DNA of 64,000 nt from Herpomyces periplanetae (lineage: Eukaryota; Ascomycota; Laboulbeniomycetes; Herpomycetales; Herpomycetaceae). Made by a program: the position numbers and the translations under genes. Under the pieces are notes generated by a model. It had not been told where the DNA came from. It saw only the letters and a program-made list of their open reading frames with translations, and did no database searches. The DNA lies in assembly GCA_009733715.1 (NCBI GenBank), contig WMKJ01000040.1, positions 41,552 to 105,551 of the forward strand, written 5' to 3'. Shown one piece after another: positions 1,485-31,655 of the stretch; position 1 is the first letter of the stretch; the number at the start of each line of letters is the position of its first letter.

Positions 1485-4400
1485 CTAAAAGCATAACGGA
1501 ATCGTATACAGGCCAGCTCGTGGTGATGTTTGACCAACGGGTGATGTTGACGTTGTTGTAGATGCTGTAACATACTCCGTAAAAGGTGAAGTTCGAACAG
1601 AATTATAAGATGGAATTGATAATGTAGACGGTGTATTGAACGTTAATGGTGATTCAAATAATCCACATGGTCCAGGTCGTCGGGTAACTGAGGGTGGAGT
1701 AGTAGACCGTCTTGTAGATAATGTAAAAGATGTAGTGTCATTAACTGCGGCTAAGTTAATCGAGTAACGACGTACATCCACACCTTCATCTTTGTTGGTT
1801 GATTCAGACTGTCCCATGAGTGCAGCATTTAAACATTTTTCAGGTATACTAAAGTAATCTGAACTTCGACTTCGTCGAACTCGTTGGTTTCTAGCTTTTC
1901 TTGCTGCAATGTCATCCTCACTATTAAGAAGATCATCCAAGCTACTTTTACCCTTAGTTGTGTATCCTGATGCTCTTCTACCATTATTGCTAAGTTTAGA
2001 GTAAATAAATGATCCGTTAATAAAGTATAACGATGTACGATCCTGCATTGTTTTAGTTGTTTTAGCTTTGGTTGAACCGTGTAAAGAATACCGATTGTTG
2101 GTAGGTGATTTAACTCCAAATGACGATAAATTGATGATTGATCCCTCCCGAATCAAGGGTAGAATATATTCCGATTTCTCTGGTACATTTGTACTAAATT
2201 CCCTTTCATTATTTATTAATGCTAGATCACTTGAATCTGATTCTGCCGTTGTTGCCCTTGATATCACCGTCGATGTTTTACCGAATCGTTTAAAAACTGG
2301 GGTAAAGCTTGCTCGACAAAATCGTGAAAATGTTGCACAAATCGGTCTAGATGAATTATCATTAATCTCATTATCAGGTCCAGTAGAATGTGGTCGAATT
2401 ATCCGCTTAATATTCATTTCAGCATCAGTATCGCTAAGTGAGTCCATGCCATAAGGTCTAATCGGTAGTCCACATGATAACGTTGGATGCTTTGCCTTAA
2501 ATAATGTACATCCTGTATCTTCCTCATTTTCCGTAGCTCGATTTTTCGCTGATGAATTAAACGATGCCACTGCTACCAGTCGTGATAATGCCATACTTGC
2601 CGGACACTTTCGTTGAGCTGCCGTTCCATTATTTGTTCGTCGAAATTCTGGTTTAACATAACTAAACGGTCTATCACTATTTGTCTTCACACTTGCTTGT
2701 AGACTCGGCCTTCCTGTGTACATTGCTGATTCACATTTTGTTATTCCAGGCCTTAACGCGGATCCCGTCACAGTTGGCATCATCATTAATGGAGATGTTG
2801 TAGTAGCAACTACATTAGGTTTATTTAACCCATATGGATGTAGTTCTCCCGGTCTGATCAATGATGCTGATGCTAATGATTTTTCCAAAATTTGTTGTCG
2901 AGATACCCCTCCTCTCTGAGAAAAAATTGAATCGTTTCTCCAAGCCGAATTCTTCCCTATTCCTTCTCGTCCAATCAAATTCACACTTCCAAGCTCCCAA
3001 TTCCGTGATAAACTAGGCGTCAACCGAAGTTTCGATGTTGATGGTCGTGGCATAACCTCTCCACCATTTCCAGCTTGCGTCTCATCCTTTTTAACCTTCG
3101 TATTTCCCCCTCCCACTCCTGCACTAACGCTTGTATTCGCAACTATCCCCGGATTAACCTTTGTACACCCTTCATTAAATGGTATAGATTTATTCATTCC
3201 TCTAACTCCCTTAATTAACGCCGTTGCAACCGTCGCATCTTTCCTTGGCACTACATTCGGATGTGTCGATTTGCTTGATCTTACACCACCCATCGTCGAT
3301 ACCATTGGTGACCTAACCTGATCCCTCGATTGATGCCTTTTTGCTGGTGTAGTATCAATTAACATCGTATCTTCCACCGTCGGTTTGGTTAGCTCTCCAT
3401 CTCCTAATGCTTCTGTAGTTTCACCTGATGCAATAGCTTTACTCTCTCCAGCTATATCCCTTGTAAGCACGGGAATGGCCTCGCTCGTATAACTGGTCTT
3501 CGTGGCTTGATCCCATATTGCTTCAACCTTGCGTTCAGTTATCCGCAACTTAGTTTCAGTAGATGACTGAAGTACATCACTCTTCAATCCGACTCTTTTA
3601 ATCCCTCTATCATACCGGTCCTTGTACATCCCTTCTTCATCATCGCTAGATGACATCCCTGAGCCAGACATTGAATCAGATGCACAGGTCGATACCGTAC
3701 AGCTACTAGTATCCGTAGAATAGTCTATCTTCATCTTATCTCTGCTTTTATTTTCATCTATTGTAATCTCCGGCTTCAATGCCTTAAGCTTTAACTCTCT
3801 CTCTGCATCATTATACCCCAAAGATTTCATATATCCATCATAATATGATTGCCAAAGATTCAATTGTAGCTTGCGCTCCGCTATTCCCGATTCTAACGTT
3901 TCCAGGGATCCACTTTGCCCAAGCACAGAGTTAGTTATGTCTTTACCTTTGACCATTTCTGACCAAACACTAGACCATTCCCGAGTAAAAAACCCGTCTT
4001 GTGACGTAGCAATATCACCGTAGAGTATCGCCTTGAGCCATTGCGGATCACCAGTCCAAAGGTTCCTAATTGTTGTCATACAGTCTTCAACTTCGGCATC
4101 AGATATTAATGGTAACTGAGTATCTTGTAGTTGACTAAACGCATTAACAGATTTTTTAAACATTTCCTCTTCCTCGTATGCTAATGCATCGTCAAACTCC
4201 TGGAAAATCTGTTTTTGTCGGTGCTTAAGTGCAGTCAGTCGGTTGAGTTTAGACTTATACGTAAGTATAAGGGGCAATAAGAGTTCCACTTCATCTCTCT
4301 TAAGCTTACTCTCCGTTGTTAATTGGAGAGCTAAAGAATTGTCACTTTGCAGAAAGCGCGCAAAGTAATGTTTGACAACAGCAAACGAGAATTCAAGTAG

Positions 4401-4817
4401 TACTTGGACAAAGCGTGCTCCAGAGCACATAGTGAACATGCTCTTTCGAAGAAAAAGGTTGTGCCGTAAGAATCCACTACGTTTTAGGCACTCCAGCATG
4501 TTAAATAGTAGTGTCCGCAGGGCGAGACTTTGACTTGGATCAGTTGCAGGGAAAAAATTGCCCAATTCGCTCGCGGTCTTGATGGGATCTAGCACCTCGA
4601 ATAACCGGTACAAAATCCATTCTCCCGTTTTGATGCATGCCGTTACTTTGCTATTTTTGCGACAAAAGCAGTTCAAAGAAGATCCGGGCCAATCGGGATA
4701 TTTATTCAGGTTCAATACTCGTAGATTTGTAGTTAGAAGAGTAATAGGATTAGAGACGTTGGAGGTTATGAGGTCAATACTCAAGGAAGATGAAGTTGTC
4801 GCCTGCGACACCGACAT
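1485..4817 (-). CDS. HAUS6: HAUS augmin-like complex subunit 6
   Basis: A single uninterrupted frame of 1110 residues that opens with a true ATG. The N-terminal 330 residues carry the identity: NLRVLNLNKYPDW, EWILYRLFEVLDP, FFPATDPSQSLALR, then LRKSMFTMCSGARFVQVLL and EFSFAVVKHYF at roughly residues 125-155, and LWTGDPQWLKAILYGD near residue 250. This matches the order of the HAUS6 N-terminal domain (calponin-homology-like, then a conserved R+S..C.G.RF..LL..FS block). The remaining 700 or so residues are Ser/Thr-rich and look disordered, as in known HAUS6 C-termini. Augmin recruits gamma-tubulin to existing microtubules for branching nucleation in the spindle. It is known from filamentous fungi such as Aspergillus and absent from budding yeast. 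Recognition is by motif pattern only; the disordered tail adds nothing. Confidence 0.7.
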   Translation of the reverse strand: MSVSQATTSSSLSIDLITSNVSNPITLLTTNLRVLNLNKYPDWPGSSLNCFCRKNSKVTACIKTGEWILYRLFEVLDPIKTASELGNFFPATDPSQSLALRTLLFNMLECLKRSGFLRHNLFLRKSMFTMCSGARFVQVLLEFSFAVVKHYFARFLQSDNSLALQLTTESKLKRDEVELLLPLILTYKSKLNRLTALKHRQKQIFQEFDDALAYEEEEMFKKSVNAFSQLQDTQLPLISDAEVEDCMTTIRNLWTGDPQWLKAILYGDIATSQDGFFTREWSSVWSEMVKGKDITNSVLGQSGSLETLESGIAERKLQLNLWQSYYDGYMKSLGYNDAERELKLKALKPEITIDENKSRDKMKIDYSTDTSSCTVSTCASDSMSGSGMSSSDDEEGMYKDRYDRGIKRVGLKSDVLQSSTETKLRITERKVEAIWDQATKTSYTSEAIPVLTRDIAGESKAIASGETTEALGDGELTKPTVEDTMLIDTTPAKRHQSRDQVRSPMVSTMGGVRSSKSTHPNVVPRKDATVATALIKGVRGMNKSIPFNEGCTKVNPGIVANTSVSAGVGGGNTKVKKDETQAGNGGEVMPRPSTSKLRLTPSLSRNWELGSVNLIGREGIGKNSAWRNDSIFSQRGGVSRQQILEKSLASASLIRPGELHPYGLNKPNVVATTTSPLMMMPTVTGSALRPGITKCESAMYTGRPSLQASVKTNSDRPFSYVKPEFRRTNNGTAAQRKCPASMALSRLVAVASFNSSAKNRATENEEDTGCTLFKAKHPTLSCGLPIRPYGMDSLSDTDAEMNIKRIIRPHSTGPDNEINDNSSRPICATFSRFCRASFTPVFKRFGKTSTVISRATTAESDSSDLALINNEREFSTNVPEKSEYILPLIREGSIINLSSFGVKSPTNNRYSLHGSTKAKTTKTMQDRTSLYFINGSFIYSKLSNNGRRASGYTTKGKSSLDDLLNSEDDIAARKARNQRVRRSRSSDYFSIPEKCLNAALMGQSESTNKDEGVDVRRYSINLAAVNDTTSFTLSTRRSTTPPSVTRRPGPCGLFESPLTFNTPSTLSIPSYNSVRTSPFTEYVTASTTTSTSPVGQTSPRAGLYTIPLCF

Positions 4818-6261
4818 AATGAAAACGCTGTATTCAAGGATCCAAGTTCACTTTCTAAAATACGCAATAAAATCAAAAATCACGATTATGACCTCTAAGT
4901 GTCAGGAAAAAATCAAATTAACACCAAAAGAAAAAGTTTTCCGACAAGAGGGATGCTGTTGTTTCAAATGTGGCAGAGATACCACTGCTGTATTTAAAAA
5001 CATTGAACAACTGGACAATAAAATTGAGAGAGTAGATTGATACCATAACGTTACCCCTTCCAATTAATATGACAATCTTAGTGGTAAAAATTAGGTTCAA
5101 AAGTCGTGAGGGCAAGTCAATTTTTCACAAGCCTTATACAATACAGTTGGTTAACCATACGAAACTCGGGGCAAAAAAACCTTTGAAAGGGTTAAATATT
5201 TCGGGTTTGACAACTTCTGCATTGATATAAAATAGGTAAGCGCTAGCCAGGTGAATAAAGATAAGGTTCAAGTAACATTTTCAGGCTGAGCTGCCAAAGG
5301 GCACCTGCACTAGGGTGCATAACTGCACGAGCAATTGAATGTGCATATTCAAGAGCTGAACACATATGAGTTAATAAATTTTGATAATAGTATATGAACG
5401 TTTAAATATTACAATATTTTCGTTCCACGGCTGACCGAAGATACGGATACATTTCGAGCATGTATTGTCAGCTCATCCAGTTGTTTGGAAATTTTAAGAT
5501 GATTATCGAGTGATAAGACAAAAAAACCCCATGAAAACCCTCTAGACCAGCAAAATATTATCAGGGGCACAAATTTAGATTATTCTGAACCGTAAAATTT
5601 ATTTCAATTTCTCAAAGATAGAGTGTAGATAGTTAAGCAGGTCAATTTTTTGAGATAAGAATTACCGGTGCATGTGTCCATTTGTATACCCACGCAAAAA
5701 TGTCTTCGTACCATTTTCATTGGCGATAGTGATTTGAAGCCTAAAAATTATATGACATGTACCAAAATAATCCTGTTTTCCACACGAATATTGCAATCAA
5801 ATCCGGTATTTTGGAATTTTAAGAAAATATTTTGCAAGAAATTCGCTAAATCGCTTCCGTAACTTGGTGAAATCAATTTAAAGACACCGATGACTAATCT
5901 GGGTTCACGTGCCATCCAAAAAGGGGTTAGCACATGACTGGAGCCGGGCCGAGACGGGATGTACTGAGCCGAACTGAGGCGTTTGGAACGGGGACGGGAA
6001 CCGGGACCAAAACCGGGGAAGAATTAGGTTTGTAAGAAACAAAATAAATTCAAAGGGTCTTGATACTTTTCCTACTGAAATTTTGAGTATTTTTGCTCTC
6101 TTCTTATCTTAGCTTGCTCTTTTGATATTTTGGTAAAATTCCCAAAACACATACTCGGTGCTACGAATTCTTTGGATTTGTATTACTTGCTGAAAATATT
6201 GCTCTATACAAATAAAAATTAAAATTTGGAGGGAATATACGCATATTATTTTACTATAATC
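4818..6261. other. divergent intergenic region (HAUS6 / CAP promoters)
   Basis: About 1.4 kb between the HAUS6-like start (minus) and the CAP start (plus). It is AT-rich, with short open frames that lack ATG starts or conservation. One local oddity is a G/C-rich stretch at about 5936-6020 with repeated ccggg/cgggac motifs, which contrasts with the AT-rich flanks. Presumably it holds both promoters. Confidence 0.5.
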
Positions 6262-18763: not shown

Positions 18764-20499
18764 TTAGAACAAGCAAAATAAAGTTGCAAGACCAAGGGAT
18801 AAGGACGTAAGAGAACCGATGAATGGGGTATTTCCACCGAAGGAGAATCTAAGGGAGAAAGCAGCGCTTTTCTTAGCACCTTTGGTTGAGTTTAACTCTA
18901 GGGGGAAACCAGCTTGACCGGGAATTCCTTCAGCATTGCTAGCGAAACTTAGTTGACCTCCGAAAGGACGAGCGGCGGTACCATCGAAGGATAGTGGAGA
19001 TACGTTGCCTTCAGCACGTTTGGCGAGGGCAGCATATTGTTGAACCGAACGGTTTGGTGGACTGGATGAAGTTAGTGATGATTGAAATAAAAGATAAGGT
19101 ATTGAGGAATTTGATGAACTTACGGGTTAATAACACCGACCATTCCGGCTTGACAATGTTTGCCTTGACTACAGTAGAACCAGATGGGTTTATCATCTTC
19201 GACTGGAATGGTGAAGATGATCTGAGCATTTTGATCGGTTGGAGCAAATCCAGAAAAGAAAGAACCACGGAATTCAGCACCGGCACTTTGTAAGGGCATG
19301 CAAGGTTGACTGAATGAAGATCTCGCAACGGAGTGATTTTTGGGGAAGAATTGAAATTGGATCATATCCCCGATATTGGCACGAATAACGTTTGGTTCGA
19401 AAACGAGTTCTGATTTTTCGTTGCCTACTTTAACAGCAATAACTTGAGGAGTTCCACCCATAGAAGCGAGACCAGCACCACCAAGTCGAGGATCAGCACC
19501 ACTAAGTCGAGGATCGACACCGGCAAGTCGGGGATCAGCACCAGCAAGACGAGGGTCAGCACCAGCTAGACGGGGATCAGCACCAGCTAGACGGGGATCA
19601 GAACCGGCAAGACGAGGATCAGCACCAGCTAGCCGGGGATCAGTTCCAGCAAGACGAGGATCAGAACCAGCTAAACGGGGATCAGCACCAGCTAAACGGG
19701 GGTCAGTTCCAGCGAGTCTAGGATCACCACCGGCTAAACGAGGATCACCACCAGCAAGTCTAGGATCGATACCAGTCAAACGGGGATCGCCACCAGCGAG
19801 ACGAGGATCAGGAGCAATTCCTACACCAACAGATACGCCAGCACCACCACCGACATTAACAGCGGCAGCTGTACCAGGTAAAGCACGAGGACTACCAGCT
19901 TCACGAGCACCACCAGGAGCAGTAGGACTTTGGGAACTTCGTGGACTAGCAGTGTTTCCTGGACTGGGAGAACTACCAAAACTAAGACCACCTTCAGCAG
20001 ATCCTAGAGCTTTTGGTTGACCGGGTTGTAAATTATTTGCATTAGTGACAGCACCTGGACCAGGAGCAAATCCCGCAGTAGATGTAGCTGTAGATCCTAT
20101 TGGATCGTTTCGAGGGGCAGTGGAAGTAGAAGATTGTGGAGTTGGCCTAACACCTTGACTGGCGTTTGGATTTGCGCCGGGAGCTTTTGGAGTTGGTTTT
20201 GTAGCAACTTCATAACCGGGACTTGTACCACCAGAAGCTGCAGTTGGAGGTCTAGCACCTGGCCCGACTTGTGCACCAATTTCAGCAGCTGGAGTACTTC
20301 CAGGCATAGTTTCAGCTCGTGATATGGCTGCAGGTTCAAGATGATTCTTTTCACTTTGTATAAAGGATTTATCAAGCCTGTTGAAATCGGGGACGTTAAG
20401 GCCAGTTCCCGGCACAATTGCACCATTTGCTTCGACGGTAGCAAAAGAAACCCGTACCAGCGGGATAAGAGCCATAGCGAGTTTATTTGATATGCGCAT
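18764..20499 (-). CDS. secreted, probably GPI-anchored cupredoxin-domain protein with DPRLAG repeats
   Basis: Exons 20499-19124 and 19061-18764 give 557 residues. The ATG at 20499 opens a signal-type sequence (MRISNKLAMALIPLVRVSFA). Then a Pro/Ala/Gly/Ser-rich region (about 50-230), sixteen DPRLAG heptads (about 231-342), and a cupredoxin domain beginning VIAVKVGNE. Its likely type-1 copper ligands are His in KNHSVA, Cys in FYCSQ, His in GKHCQ and Met in AGMVG. After the single 62-nt intron comes a Ser-containing stalk and a hydrophobic C-terminus (IGSLTSLSLGLATLFCLF) typical of GPI attachment. Fungal cell-wall proteins of this kind are common; a copper-binding or structural role is inferred, not shown. 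The heptad block resembles no domain I know. The gene for the first enzyme of GPI synthesis (PIG-A) also lies in this window, unlinked. Confidence 0.88.
19474..19809 (-). repeat. coding tandem repeat, 16 x 21 bp (DPRLAGx)
   Basis: Sixteen consecutive 21-bp units encode Asp-Pro-Arg-Leu-Ala-Gly-X, with X being Gly, Ile, Thr, Ala, Ser or Val. Units 2, 15 and 16 vary at position 5 (Thr, Ser, Gly). The protein is far more uniform than the DNA: third codon positions differ between units (cgg, cga and other Arg or Leu codons). This suggests an old array under selection for the peptide rather than a fresh expansion. Confidence 0.95.
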
Positions 20500-22157
20500 A
20501 TTGGGGATTTTTATCGTTGACAATGAAAAAGTGGTACAGTGTGTACACACACTAAAAGTTGGTGAGTGGGTATACTTAATTCAAGAACGGTAAATTTGAT
20601 CGTGATGTTAACTTGGGATATTTCTGTTTGTAGGTTCCTTAGGAGCAGCGACTAGAATCGCTGGATTGTTAAAGTCGGGATATTTAATATTGAAACTGGA
20701 AAACGTGATGATGTATCACGAAGAAACTCTAGCAAAGATTTCGAGAATAGTGCCCCCCAAAGAGAAGTGTGTGCTTCTTTATGTCAATATAAAGAAGAAA
20801 GTAAACGGTTTTAAAGTCATTTTTCTTCACTGGCATGGTTAGTCCAGGAATTTATACACTGTCAGTGCAACCTCGCAAAAGTAAGTCTACGGTAACTTGT
20901 CATTTACGATTATGTCGACTGTAAAACGGAGATTTCTTATCCGGATTCACTAACCACTGGCGAAACACAACTCTGGAAGCTTAGTCGGGTTAGATTGATA
21001 ATTTGTATCAACCTCTTGTACGGCATGGCATGGAATCGCATCACAACGCCCAACGTTTCTTCAACAATTTAAAACTTCCCCTAACCTCCTTTCATTTCAT
21101 GCTCAGTTTAACCGCTAAGCTGATTCGAACACTTTAATTCAATGCCCTCACAGGCTTGAAACGGTCGTATCCTTATTCCTTAAGGTCACTTTTCCATCCC
21201 GGTTGTTAATCATGAAGCCCATCTGGTTTCTAATTGTGTGAGATATGCTCAATACGAAACGTACAATACTGCACATCGCAAATCGCCCCCAGAGATATCG
21301 TGTCATCTGTTACTCTCCTATACTTGATTGTATAGTTAAGGCAACATGATACTGCTAACTTCATGTGGACGCGCAATGCAACTTTTCCACTGCGCATGCG
21401 CTACTTCAAGTATTCCCATTCTGTATACCTTCTTACAGTACACGTTAACATCTCTGCATAATCCATGTACTCGTTGTTTTAACTTCCTTTCCCACCCATT
21501 TTCGGTACTTCCAAGTTCTCAATTGCAATCCTTCTCTAATCCTTAGCCTTAGTCCCATATTAAATATTTCCACTTATCACCCAGCAAGGATCATTCTGGC
21601 TGCCTAATATCTTCGTTCTTTACTCCAACGTATACGCAACCCTATTTATATCGTAATCCTCAAACTTACTATTCCATGCCATCATATATTTTTGCACTGT
21701 TAAATCTTTCTAAGAATGCCATCCACCAATCTGCAACATTTCCCCCTACCTCTCTCAAAGCGAACAGTTTCACCTTGCCAATAGTGTAGCTTAGACGGAT
21801 GAAACGAAACCATTTAAGTTAAAGCGTTGCGCAAAACTTCACGCATTCGCTCGCCTTATGAACCATTTTACGCCGATAAATTGCCTTTCCTTGCCTTAAC
21901 TGTATCCTCTCTGTTATGATACGGTAAATCATAGTATGATATGGTTTTGTGAAAAGTTATCAATGCGCATTGATCCATTTGCCTAAATTTACAGTGTTAA
22001 GTAAACATGCATTAGTTAACAATTGTACGTCCCCAATGCTAACTTTTTCCAGTGTGATTCAACTCTGCATAATGTTGCACGATTAATATTTTGTTGCGCG
22101 CGCGCGCGCACACATTCACGCTCCTACATGAGTACGGATACGGTATAATTAGTGGCA
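20500..22157. other. intergenic region upstream of the cupredoxin gene
   Basis: 1.66 kb between two minus-strand genes. No gene recognised; the 66-codon plus frame at 21346-21546 is C/T-rich with no conserved motif. A (GC)6 dinucleotide run lies at 22096-22107. Presumably the cupredoxin promoter and the CENP-X 3' region. Confidence 0.5.
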
Positions 22158-24070: not shown

Positions 24071-25318
24071 ATGACGATGACAATACCGCTGGCCTTTGTC
24101 AATCTTTGTCAAACGGTTATTGCAAAACCTCTCCGTTTAGTGCACCACACACTCTCACGATTATTGCCCTTTACGAATCCACAAACTCCATTCTGGCAAG
24201 ATGTGATTCACCTTATCGCGTTGGGAGCCGCATTATACCTAGCACCTGACGTCTTAACGGATGAGAATCTGGTTCGTTTACGCCAATTTTGGCGTAGAAG
24301 TCAGACTCAAGCTCCCGTGCCTACACTTACCCAAGATGCCTCGTCAGGTGTGGGAGAAGTTACCTTACCACACTCATCATCCCCGGAGGTAATCGAAAAT
24401 GAGCGTATAACAACCGATTTAGTCAATTCGCGCGTGCAAGCTGATTACTTGTATGCACTTCAATTGCAAATGGAACAAGATGCCGAAGATAATTCTAATG
24501 GAGCAGCTGCTGTTGTTGCTGCCACTGTAGCAGCTGAAGCCGCTAATGATGAATATAGACCTGAAAGTTCGGGTCAAGGTCAACGGCATCGTGAAAGGCT
24601 AATCACCCCCCTAGAAGCAGTCCCCGGCGGTAGTAATGTTACCGCTAGCAAAGGGGCGGTTGGAGCTAAAAAAGCAAAGTCTATAGCGCGCAAAGAAGCC
24701 CGTCGAGCATACAATGAATTTTTGCGGACGCGGAGTGAAATGCAGCGTCGTGATGAAGATTTAATGATCCAGCGGATCAATCAGGATCGTGTGGCCCGTG
24801 AAAATTTACTGCTGGACGGCGAAGGTAGTAGTAGAGATGGTGCACGCTTGAGTGAAAGTGTAGAATATCGGCGGCAACAAGAAAAATGGGAACGACAAGC
24901 TAGCAAAGCTATAATGCGGGCTAATGTGGAAGCGATAAACCGACGAGCGCGAGAATTTTTAAACGAAACTCGTAACACATGCGGAATAGCAAGCATTAGT
25001 TTAACGGAATTAGCACAGGATGCAAGTTGTGATACGGCTACGCTCGACATGGGATGTATACGCAGCATTCTTAAGAGAAGTGATATCTTGGGAAGATTGG
25101 TACCGGGTGGGGAAAATTGTGGAATGACAAGTGAAGGAGAGGAGAGTTGCGTAATGATTACACGAAATGATCAATTAGTTAGAATATCCCGAACGGCCAT
25201 GGAAGAGATTTACGCGGGCATAAACGAACGGATTAACGCGACGGGTTATATTGATAGTGATAATGTTGTACAGTTAGTAAACGGAATAGCGCGATTTGTA
25301 CGTACGTGTACCGCGTAA
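24071..25318 (+). CDS. DDRGK1/UFBP1-like membrane protein
   Basis: 415 residues from the first ATG at 24071; the frame opens at a TTG 24 bases earlier, and the ATG at 24077 is also possible. Order: a hydrophobic N-terminal segment (IHLIALGAALYLAPDVL, about 45-61), an acidic/low-complexity linker, a basic helical block starting VGAKKAKSIARKEARRAYNE (about 205-225), a charged coiled-coil-like region with EYRRQQEKWERQ (about 265), then two winged-helix-like parts: REFLNETRN...ISLTELAQDAS...IRSILKRSDILGRLV and CVMITRNDQLVRIS...IYAGINERINATGYID. This layout and the GAKK-x-K-x5-K-x-AR-A block parallel animal and plant DDRGK1, an ER-membrane adaptor of the UFM1 E3 ligase. The DDRGK motif is degenerate (RNDQL at that place). 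No other UFM1 gene is in the window. Its stop lies 28 bp from that of prefoldin 4, tail to tail. Alternative: an unrelated coiled-coil/winged-helix protein. Confidence 0.6.
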   Translation: MTMTIPLAFVNLCQTVIAKPLRLVHHTLSRLLPFTNPQTPFWQDVIHLIALGAALYLAPDVLTDENLVRLRQFWRRSQTQAPVPTLTQDASSGVGEVTLPHSSSPEVIENERITTDLVNSRVQADYLYALQLQMEQDAEDNSNGAAAVVAATVAAEAANDEYRPESSGQGQRHRERLITPLEAVPGGSNVTASKGAVGAKKAKSIARKEARRAYNEFLRTRSEMQRRDEDLMIQRINQDRVARENLLLDGEGSSRDGARLSESVEYRRQQEKWERQASKAIMRANVEAINRRAREFLNETRNTCGIASISLTELAQDASCDTATLDMGCIRSILKRSDILGRLVPGGENCGMTSEGEESCVMITRNDQLVRISRTAMEEIYAGINERINATGYIDSDNVVQLVNGIARFVRTCTA

Positions 25319-27572: not shown

Positions 27573-30062
27573 TTATGGACAAACGGTAGCACGCTGAGAA
27601 GCTAAAAGACCACGAAAAACAATTTGACCTGGCGCACCACAAAACAATCCTGTCAACCAAGATCTTGGATAATAAAATACTGAGTGGGCATGGTGGGGCA
27701 CCGTTGAGTCCATAATAAGGGTTTCTTCAACTGGAAGTGTACTACGTGCTACTGTATCCGAGAAATTTATACCGGAACGCTGATCTTTAACAGGCCCACC
27801 ACTTGCAGCACTGCTGCTAACCCGTTGAAAGACAAATGAACCGTCTGAGTCGGGTTCTTCTGTCAATGAATCACTCGATGGCTTTGATGAATCCGTATTC
27901 CAAGAGTCTTGACCACTATCATAACCAAGTACAGTTCTCCGTAACCATGGTCCAACAAATACGCCCTTAGGATCAACACGAGCTCGAACCTTTCGCCACG
28001 CCAATAAATCACTTGAATACATCTTTAGGAATGTCGATGATGTATTATACGGCGCGGTAGACTGCCCTGATGCAGCTAATGGCCTAACCAGAGTAACTTT
28101 ATGCGAAGCTGATGATGATGGTGGTGGAACTGAATTTCCTTCATCACTGCCAACGTGCAAAAATGACGATGTCGACGATGCCGATGACAGGGGAGCCCCT
28201 TTTAGGCCTCCATTTGGTAAAGGAAGTTCTGACAAACTTGGCCCGGGTACCGACACTGGAGCAATTGCCGCTTTGCCTCGCCAATCATCTTCGTGAAGAA
28301 AGTTCTTTGCCCAATGCGGTCGGCCGCCGAAATGGTGCATAACAAATTCAAATGCGGCATATAACTTTTGTGTGCAAACCGGAGCCCGTTCTCCCGGTCG
28401 GTATAACGTCATATTAATGTAAACGGTTGGTTCATCAAGTTGACTTGGGTCAAGGTACGGCCGATTAGTTTGCCATCGGGTTTCCATTGATCCACTTTCT
28501 CTATTGATTAGCTTACTCGATGTATGCGGTGAAGTTTGGGATTGTAGTTCCGCAGTCGCTTCAACATAATTCGGATATACGACCCGTACTTCTATAGGTG
28601 CATGCGCATACACTCCACTTGCGGAAAATGGTATTTTAACGGGAAGTATCTGTCGCGAATCCGTCGCATCATCAGCTTTTATCGTTGTGTCCAACGTTTC
28701 ACGTTCACGAGACGTAGAAGTTGCAAATGAAGACGAATTATCAATTTCCTCTCGGTTTAACCATTTATCCAAACTTTCGATCGCTGCAGGTGCGCAACTG
28801 AGTGGAATTCCCCACTCATTAACAACTTGACTGAATAAACAATCGATTAACTGGGCTTCATGAAACTCGCAGATCCCAGTTTTAGTCGCATAATCGGAAA
28901 ATCCACACTTAATTCCAAATACAAGCCATTCAATTGTCCGATTTAACCGTGGAATGAAGTGGGCCACGTATAACAACATGTAATGAGTTAAACGTCCAAT
29001 CTGTGTCGTAGCTGCGATAAGTTTTCTGGTTAACTTATTCACTAGTTTATAAATGAATGATTGATATCCAGTTAAATGTTGAGATGAGTAAACATCTTCG
29101 GGTGGAGCTGGTAAAGCGGTTGGATTACCACGCCAGACGATGGCACGGCGTGTATGAGGAAGCCAGAACACACGAATGAACTCAGTTTGACCCCAGAAAT
29201 CCAAGGGATTTCGCTTCCAAGTGGCTAATAGATCGGATAATGGTAGCATACATTGGGACCATGTCATGTTAACACGGTAGGGAGTACCGCTAACATTGGA
29301 GGTGGGTAATAATCGCAAAGTAACTTCAACTAGTATGCCCAAGGCGCCCAAAGAAACGAGGGCGGCCCGAAATAATTCCAAATCATGTTCGGCAGAACAT
29401 TCTACAACGTAAGAATTGGCCAGGACGATTTTCATCTTGCATACTGATTCACTTAATAGACCGTGATAAAGTGAACCACCGTGAGTGGCAGTAGCTAGAG
29501 CACCGGCGATGCTCTGTTCGTCAATACTGCCTAATGATGAAATAGTTAGACCGTACTTACGCACGCATGCGATAAGCTGCCTTAAACGTATGCCGGCTTG
29601 AACTTGCATGTGGACGTCAGGATCGTGTTGACGTAAAGTACAAAGTTTTTCACGGATAAGATTGTCGCAGTTGGTGCAAGGATCGTGAGGATTAGCTTCA
29701 ACACTGATGAAGCGATTCATACGATCCAAGCTTATCATCCAGCCTGATGTGCAAGTTAACTCACTGGGGGAGTGACCTGATCCGACAACGCATAAGCGTA
29801 TACGATAACGTTGAGCAGCGTGCACGATAATTTGAACATCTTGTATACACGTCGGCTCAAAGTATCGTAGCGGATAACATGTAAAAGTTCTTGCCCACGT
29901 TGTGAAAGCAAATTTACGCGAGCCTGGGATGCTTGATAAACGTGCGTCAAGCCATTTGTCACTTTGATTTGCTAACGCATCCACTTGTTGATCATTGTAG
30001 AACCTTGTTGATACCGGCGATGAAGGTAGCTGCGTTACCGCTTCGTCTGAAGTAAGTGTCAT
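27573..30062 (-). CDS. ALO1: D-arabinono-1,4-lactone oxidase, extended
   Basis: Intronless, 829 residues from the ATG at 30062. The FAD-binding (PCMH) domain includes WARTFTCYPLRYFEP, then VVGSGHSPSEL at 92-102, whose His (about 98) is the covalent FAD attachment site in ALO-type enzymes, and GSIDEQSIAGALATATHGGS. The ALO C-terminal domain shows VYAHAPIEVRVVYP, YINMTLYRP and HHFGGRPHWAKNFL (about 575-590), then RVDPKGVFVGPWLR. It oxidises D-arabinono-1,4-lactone to dehydro-D-arabinono-lactone, the last step of D-erythroascorbate synthesis, probably at the mitochondrial outer membrane. The family is usually about 500-600 residues. Here Ser-rich insertions follow the HWAK region and a tail of about 110 residues (ending LLASQRATVCP) follows the normal C-terminus. 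The function call is safe; the extra regions are unexplained. Confidence 0.93.
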   Translation of the reverse strand: MTLTSDEAVTQLPSSPVSTRFYNDQQVDALANQSDKWLDARLSSIPGSRKFAFTTWARTFTCYPLRYFEPTCIQDVQIIVHAAQRYRIRLCVVGSGHSPSELTCTSGWMISLDRMNRFISVEANPHDPCTNCDNLIREKLCTLRQHDPDVHMQVQAGIRLRQLIACVRKYGLTISSLGSIDEQSIAGALATATHGGSLYHGLLSESVCKMKIVLANSYVVECSAEHDLELFRAALVSLGALGILVEVTLRLLPTSNVSGTPYRVNMTWSQCMLPLSDLLATWKRNPLDFWGQTEFIRVFWLPHTRRAIVWRGNPTALPAPPEDVYSSQHLTGYQSFIYKLVNKLTRKLIAATTQIGRLTHYMLLYVAHFIPRLNRTIEWLVFGIKCGFSDYATKTGICEFHEAQLIDCLFSQVVNEWGIPLSCAPAAIESLDKWLNREEIDNSSSFATSTSRERETLDTTIKADDATDSRQILPVKIPFSASGVYAHAPIEVRVVYPNYVEATAELQSQTSPHTSSKLINRESGSMETRWQTNRPYLDPSQLDEPTVYINMTLYRPGERAPVCTQKLYAAFEFVMHHFGGRPHWAKNFLHEDDWRGKAAIAPVSVPGPSLSELPLPNGGLKGAPLSSASSTSSFLHVGSDEGNSVPPPSSSASHKVTLVRPLAASGQSTAPYNTSSTFLKMYSSDLLAWRKVRARVDPKGVFVGPWLRRTVLGYDSGQDSWNTDSSKPSSDSLTEEPDSDGSFVFQRVSSSAASGGPVKDQRSGINFSDTVARSTLPVEETLIMDSTVPHHAHSVFYYPRSWLTGLFCGAPGQIVFRGLLASQRATVCP

Positions 30063-31655
30063 AATACGATTGAGTAAATGGTGGTCGATGTGAGGTTAGG
30101 TGAGCCACGAGAAGAGACAAAAAACTAACCACGGTAGTGGCAAAGAGTAAAAAGTGTGTAAATTTAACGTATTAACCAAACTTGGGTTAACGTAGTTAGC
30201 TGTAGATCGCGATTTTTGACGAGGGAAATTTATCACAATCCAAAAAGCAAAAACCCTTCATGAAGCGCAGTTAGACCTTATTATCATTTAATAGTGTTAA
30301 AGGGTAACTCACGCTTATAAACGGCAAAAGAGTGTTAAATTCACTCTCTCACTCACGCATCAGCTCACACTTTGCTTAGAAGCAAGAGTGGAAGAGTACT
30401 CACTCACTTATACTCTCGTGCACAGGATGCTAACAATTAACGTGCTACGCAAGCGGGAATTCAAGTATCTTGATAAGGCCAAAAGTGTAACGATAATCGC
30501 CGAACTTGGTCAAACTTAAGCGAACAAACCACGGCTCACGTGAACAGGGCAACGGCGAGAGACTATCACCGCCACTGCCGCCATGGGAGGTGATAACTCG
30601 ATGCCGATAAATTTGCCGGTTTGAAATAGGACGTTCGGCATTCCGATATCGGTCCTAGCTCCGGAGTCCGGTGCTGGGTGTTTTGAAGCTATTTACCAAT
30701 AATGCATTAGTTATTCCGGTGGATTTATGGCGGAGGAAAAAACTGGTAACTTACATAACAAAATCCACTATCAACCCGCTAATTGCACAGTCGTGTATTT
30801 TAAATGTCTTTAAATACGAATGATATTCCACGTAAATACATACATGTTCATTCATTCAATCACCCATACATTACACTTTGCCTCCCTCCTCTCCTGAATC
30901 CATATCTCCCCACCACATTTCCACAAATCTATGCCATCTCGCATCCCCTTATCATCCAACGGCATTGACACGTGACCTCTCTTGTGTACTGGGGTAAATG
31001 CAGCAAGACGCGTGTTAACAAGGCGAAAAAAAATGAAAATGATTTGGTACATAGATTTAGGTGAACTATGACCAGTTACCTTAACGGACCAAACCAGTTA
31101 CATGTATATACATGCATGTACATACTTCCACGTATGAATGCACTTAAAGGCATCACGTGCTTGTTAAACAATAACTATCTCACACAGGAATATGGAATTA
31201 GTGTTATCAGTTACGCTACCAAGCAAGTGAGCAAGTTTGGATAGGTAGTTGTAGTAATGTTAGCTTTCACATCCTGATCATCAGCTCTTCATATTCTGCA
31301 TCAATCTGAAGTATGGTTCTAGTATTGCATGAGAAAACAAAATGCAGAGGCCGCCGCCTCTCGCACCTCTGAATCCATGTGCCTGCTTGCTCATGTATAA
31401 TCTATAAGCAACCATGGGAATCCGTTTGCAAATTATACCATCAAAACAATCCACAAAATTGAATACGTAAAGCAATCAAACTTCATGGTGTTAACAACAG
31501 GCTAGTTCTTCAGCTGATCAAGAAATGAAAGAAAATGACAAAATTGTCCGTAAAACGGACGAAAGCTCTATACGTCATCTTTCACTCCCAACTGATACGG
31601 TACGTACGCGAGGGCATATTATATCGAACACCGTTCACCATATATATGTATGCAT
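30063..31655. other. intergenic region
   Basis: 1.59 kb between the lactone oxidase start and the kinase stop (both minus). CACGTG occurs near 30537, 30970 and 31150. A 66-codon ATG frame at 30852-31052 (minus) and one at 31281-31475 have no recognisable motif and I do not support them. Confidence 0.45.

Follow-up and report, generated by a model that had tools for sequence, protein, structure and literature searches.

The available part of PMC10183829 describes the loss of UFM1 in fungi, certain of which keep some components of UFMylation, and notes that eukaryotes lacking UFM1 often keep UFL1 and DDRGK1; its cases were identified with profile HMMs at a threshold of E < 1e-5. In the human ligase, as far as the accessible text of PMC10937380 goes, a basic helical arm docks next to the exit tunnel of the 60S subunit, a role is described for Arg265 as well as for the arm, and UFL1 completes the C-terminal partial winged helix of UFBP1; the recycling of ER-bound 60S in fungi without UFMylation is left open by the authors. 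No title or abstract start on fungal DDRGK1 was found beyond these two papers. As a kind, a DDRGK1 orphaned by the loss of UFM1 would have precedent, because UFL1 and DDRGK1 kept without UFM1 are reported in the accessible part of PMC10183829, and one that also lacks UFL1 would be less usual.

A candidate DDRGK1 had been proposed from the letters of the DNA in Herpomyces periplanetae, within the window, a stretch of 64,000 nucleotides of contig WMKJ01000040.1 (assembly GCA_009733715.1, positions 41,552 to 105,551). Its plus strand carries at 24071..25318 a single open frame of 415 codons, encoding a protein of 415 residues. This is a real gene, since an open run of this length is not expected by chance (given the base composition, the window should contain about 2e-8 such runs) and codon use is coding-like, the codon-usage score being positive in this one of the six frames only, with five more long frames from the window as reference. 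The genome search with the protein (13.8 Mb, 220 contigs) returned its own locus as the sole match, so the gene is single copy. An intron in the wing loop was considered and is unlikely; in-frame GT-AG pairs are present, but the branch motif sought accompanied none of the 13 listed. The upstream neighbor, on the opposite strand, encodes a CENP-X protein, and the downstream one, 28 bases away and tail to tail, a prefoldin-like protein; neither has a bearing on UFMylation.

The product of this gene is probably a membrane-tethered coiled-coil scaffold with no assigned family and no relationship to DDRGK1. Kinship with DDRGK1 is unproven because the resemblance is close only in a short basic helix, the family test failed, and no other part of a UFM1 system was found in the genome.

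The layout is compatible with that of DDRGK1/UFBP1 (PF09756) and nondiagnostic. A hydrophobic segment, a linker, a basic helix starting with GAKK, and a C-terminus predicted at low confidence to have a winged-helix-like order follow each other in the same order, as the sequence-only reading had stated when it claimed the full DDRGK1 layout, but two of the parts are less pronounced than claimed. The candidate N-terminal membrane segment, the hydrophobic stretch VIHLIALGAALYLAPDVLT (residues 45-63, 24203..24259, plus strand), is borderline, with a Kyte-Doolittle mean of 1.73 over 19 residues, and begins about 45 residues in from the N-terminus, whereas human DDRGK1 reaches 2.37 from residue 2; the segment here is thus weaker and further in. 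The linker (residues 61-192) is net acidic, with 19 D+E versus 10 K+R, but mildly so, and 9 of its 19 acidic residues fall within its most acidic part, residues 101-140 (24371..24490, plus strand; 9 D+E, 2 K+R). The proposed start of the basic helix was confirmed, with VGAKK from residue 197, as was the charged nature of residues 193-303 (27 K+R and 18 D+E). Single-sequence AlphaFold predicted a first long helix at residues 196-249 (24656..24817, plus strand), the best-predicted part of the model with a mean pLDDT of up to 81 in blocks of 10 residues, then a break at residues 250-258, a second helix to residue 303, and a C-terminus of 112 residues. LLLDGEG (residues 246-252, 24806..24826, plus strand) lies where the first helix gives way to the second, placed by MAFFT in a weak alignment opposite the human UFM1-binding linker.

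The basic helix starting with GAKK is a DDRGK1-like feature. Its beginning, KGAVGAKKAKSIARKEARRAYNE (residues 194-216, 24650..24718, plus strand), is identical at 10 of 23 positions to SGKIGAKKLRKLEEKQARKAQRE of human DDRGK1. The comparison set was 119 ORFs, each 150 residues or longer, from 264,000 bases of the genome (the window plus 20 stretches taken from two contigs); in it the stretch scored 56 and the next best 34. Permuting the 23-mer 200,000 times never reached this score, nor did 30,000 permutations of residues 185-245 (extrapolated P of 9e-5) or 3,000 block shuffles of the whole protein (extrapolated P of 2.7e-4), both P values being uncorrected for the choice of the stretch. As judged by these comparisons, the 23-residue helix is closer to human DDRGK1 than composition-based chance, and in our reading of the human, a fly-like and an Arabidopsis-like sequence it may be the family-defining element. 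The outlier score and the permutations count against an unrelated scaffold and argue for a genuine orthologue of DDRGK1 that has diverged strongly and persists without UFM1, a reading that we regard as possible though doubtful. Such a protein would be ER-anchored with its basic arm retained, and the DDRGK loop, a contact site for UFC1 and CDK5RAP3, would have decayed because these partners are gone. The unguided alignment, collinear from GAKK into the C-terminal domain, is also consistent with a diverged orthologue, as are the roles described for the arm and Arg265 in the accessible text of PMC10937380 and the partial retention of UFMylation components, including UFL1 and DDRGK1 without UFM1, reported in that of PMC10183829.

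Searches with phmmer pointed in both directions. Without composition correction, human DDRGK1 was the best of 121 targets, with E values of 0.0069 to 0.0085 at PDB size, in favor of a diverged DDRGK1. It also came first with the correction, ahead of 118 other ORFs, for the whole protein and for residues 191-415, and this top rank in both modes speaks against an unrelated scaffold; the corrected E values of 13 and 1.6, respectively, speak for one, and by them the overall match loses its significance. A 42-residue fragment placed human DDRGK1 first only when the correction was off. Contrary to expectations for an orthologue, two further DDRGK1 sequences, one fly-like and one Arabidopsis-like, fell among or below the ORFs of the same genome in the corrected search. 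By sequence comparison the DDRGK1 likeness lies in the twilight zone, a lead rather than proof.

The family tests went against DDRGK1. The Pfam DDRGK model gave 6.9 bits (E of 6.1) on residues 193-415, covering the coil only and far under the curated cut-off of 27.8, compared with 243.3 bits for human DDRGK1 as a control, and DDRGK was not among the matches in the Pfam scan of the whole protein. Four unrelated models outscored it on residues 193-415, each under its own cut-off: DUF7090 (E of 0.027), a colicin E2 coiled-coil model (E of 0.2), Ribosomal_L20, and NAM-associated. The best of these, DUF7090 (PF23365), matched residues 284-341 with E values of 0.027 to 0.066 and at best 14.6 bits versus a cut-off of 27, which is compatible with chance. 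The Pfam check suggested together with the DDRGK1 name thus turned out negative, which weighs against a diverged orthologue and for the unrelated scaffold. The scaffold is also favored by phmmer against the PDB, where the whole protein and three fragments returned no DDRGK1 at E ≤ 10 from a set that contains the human protein.

Against a small DDRGK1 profile built from the human, fly-like, and Arabidopsis-like sequences, the signal was modest for the whole protein (score reached by 66 and 17 of 2000 block shuffles) and weak for the coil with the C-terminus (113 and 180 of 2000) and for the coil (274 and 174 of 2000), while the winged-helix part was equalled by 606 and 699 of 2000, the result expected of an unrelated scaffold. 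After composition correction, the profile ranked these parts 2nd of 77, 5th of 66, 22nd of 68, and 24th of 60, respectively, among the reported ORFs of the genome, and hhalign aligned residues 194-216 only, with an E value of 0.027 and a probability of 1.8; both outcomes count against the diverged orthologue. The raw alignment to human DDRGK1 (score of 86, z of 7 versus full shuffles) was rejected as evidence because 25, 23, and 27 of 2000 shuffles in blocks of 10, 20, and 40 residues, respectively, reached the score and because the window's eIF5B frame, with its charged N-terminus, scored higher (106) among the 93 frames compared. Aligned alone to human DDRGK1, the C-terminal part behaved like shuffled sequence (898 of 2000 reached the score). 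As a name, DDRGK1 was a reasonable lead, but it does not pass the formal test. Another PF09756 match in the genome (contig C170, 21.7 bits) was set aside, being labeled by reading as a proteasome Rpn6-like PCI protein. No PF09756 match at E ≤ 0.01 was found in the 14 genomes to which actin-bearing loci belong (0 of 14), and a search of prokaryote and viral contigs for relatives of DDRGK1 or of the 415-residue protein was unproductive.

The C-terminal part (residues 285-415, 24923..25315, plus strand) has no family match over cut-off. Both single-sequence AlphaFold runs placed in it four helices, two or three strands, and two helices, a predicted winged-helix-like order that would suit a diverged DDRGK1; the models are of low confidence, with a mean pLDDT of 42.7 for the whole protein and 45.1 for residues 285-415. 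A missing DDRGK match and a fold without tandem winged helices had been named as observations that would speak against the DDRGK1 assignment. The former was obtained; on the fold, there are the low-confidence models and a Foldseek search with that of the C-terminal domain, which returned nothing at E ≤ 0.001. The DDRGK motif itself is absent from the WH1' wing, unlike in DDRGK1, and depending on the register, VPGGE or RNDQL stands there; the replacement of DDRGK by RNDQL, as read earlier, holds in one register, but both automatic alignments set VPGGE opposite DDRGK.

Functional partners were sought in the same genome by profile searches. Run at E ≤ 1 or E ≤ 10, these gave no match for UFM1, UFC1, the UFSP-type Peptidase_C78, or CDK5RAP3, nor for the N-terminal and central UFL1 models (PF09743 and PF23659), the UFL1 search being nonexhaustive. 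The single match of UFL1_C (PF25041; E of 0.04) was rejected, since its I/LWEQ and ANTH domains mark it as a Sla2-type protein. The ThiF profile gave nine matches in about seven genes, comprising two UBA2-like genes with SCCH and UAE_UbL domains (UAE_UbL under the cut-off in one), one ATG7, one Uba4-like gene with a rhodanese domain, and three ThiF-only genes labeled by reading as TcdA-, UBA3-, and AOS1-like; no UBA5 was recognized among the nine. ATG8, a small ubiquitin-like protein with an intron-split gene, was found as a control. UBA1 is expected in any eukaryote, yet it was missing from the ThiF matches, a sign of gaps in either the assembly or the search. The UFM1-system models also gave nothing over cut-off in 14 control genomes and thus have no positive control. 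On both grounds the absences are provisional.

The suggestion that the fungus keeps UFMylation, with the protein as a normal ligase anchor, is accordingly very improbable to us. It would account for the layout, and the missed UBA1 and the models silent in the control genomes mean that the absences are not proof; it is opposed by the unmatched UFM1, UFC1, Peptidase_C78, CDK5RAP3, and UFL1 models, by the Sla2-type identity of the UFL1_C match, by the lack of a recognized UBA5 among the nine ThiF matches, and by the recovery of ATG8. The profile searches therefore lend a working UFM1 system no support, provisionally. The two UBA2-like genes, L003 and L004, on contigs C40 and C50 of the one assembly, are 43% identical (210 of 488 positions), so that either the gene duplicated long ago or the assembly mixes two organisms.

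The failure to find UFL1 also separates the protein from DDRGK1 as described, counts against a diverged orthologue, and favors the unrelated scaffold, since the partial winged helix of an orphan DDRGK1 would have to be completed by some other protein. The UFM1-less keepers of DDRGK1 and UFL1 in the accessible part of PMC10183829 resemble this fungus in that UFM1 was not found in the genome, but they are HMM-detectable, while the protein here is undetectable at E < 1e-5 and no UFL1 accompanies it. We consider it unlikely that the protein is an orphan DDRGK1 left without UFL1 or anything else of the UFM1 system and now serving as an ER-anchored arm that touches the 60S subunit at the exit tunnel. 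If the kinship were true, the fungus would possess a ligase scaffold and no modifier, offering a test of which scaffold parts serve the ribosome alone, and an arm lacking UFL1 would represent a stripped-down way for fungi to manage ER-bound 60S without UFMylation.

For the membrane-tethered scaffold unrelated to DDRGK1, the coding signal, the predicted order of secondary structure, the Pfam shortfall, and the block shuffles that reach the overall score fit together in the following way. The hydrophobic segment near the N-terminus would hold the protein at a membrane, the flexible and mildly acidic linker would space it off, the long basic helix may contact an acidic partner such as rRNA or an acidic protein, and the small winged-helix-like C-terminal domain may bind another protein. 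The likeness to DDRGK1 would then come down to convergence in composition and layout and to a single short basic helix.

Other frames of the window showed features of their own. The eIF5B scored best against chain 4n3g_A (955.7 bits), presumably the eIF5B-like protein of Chaetomium thermophilum, and next against 6uz7_1 (KLLA0F23265p, 833.7 bits); these matches make a fungal host most likely, and a D-arabinono-lactone oxidase in the window agrees with it. The 1120-residue frame at 1485-4847 (minus strand) has the N-terminal domain of the augmin subunit HAUS6 (Pfam E of 1.4e-31), a microtubule-branching factor, in a small genome. At 19120-20580 (minus strand), a 21-base repeat occurs 16.1 times (19473-19811, DPRLAG-type units), and the C-terminal stretch that follows the repeats is cupredoxin-like and secreted by reading, with no Pfam match to the frame at E ≤ 0.001. 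In the D-arabinono-1,4-lactone oxidase at 27573-30095 (minus strand), about 250 positions of the ALO model are spread over residues 276-720, so that a long insertion, serine-rich by eye, lies within the domain in the same open frame.
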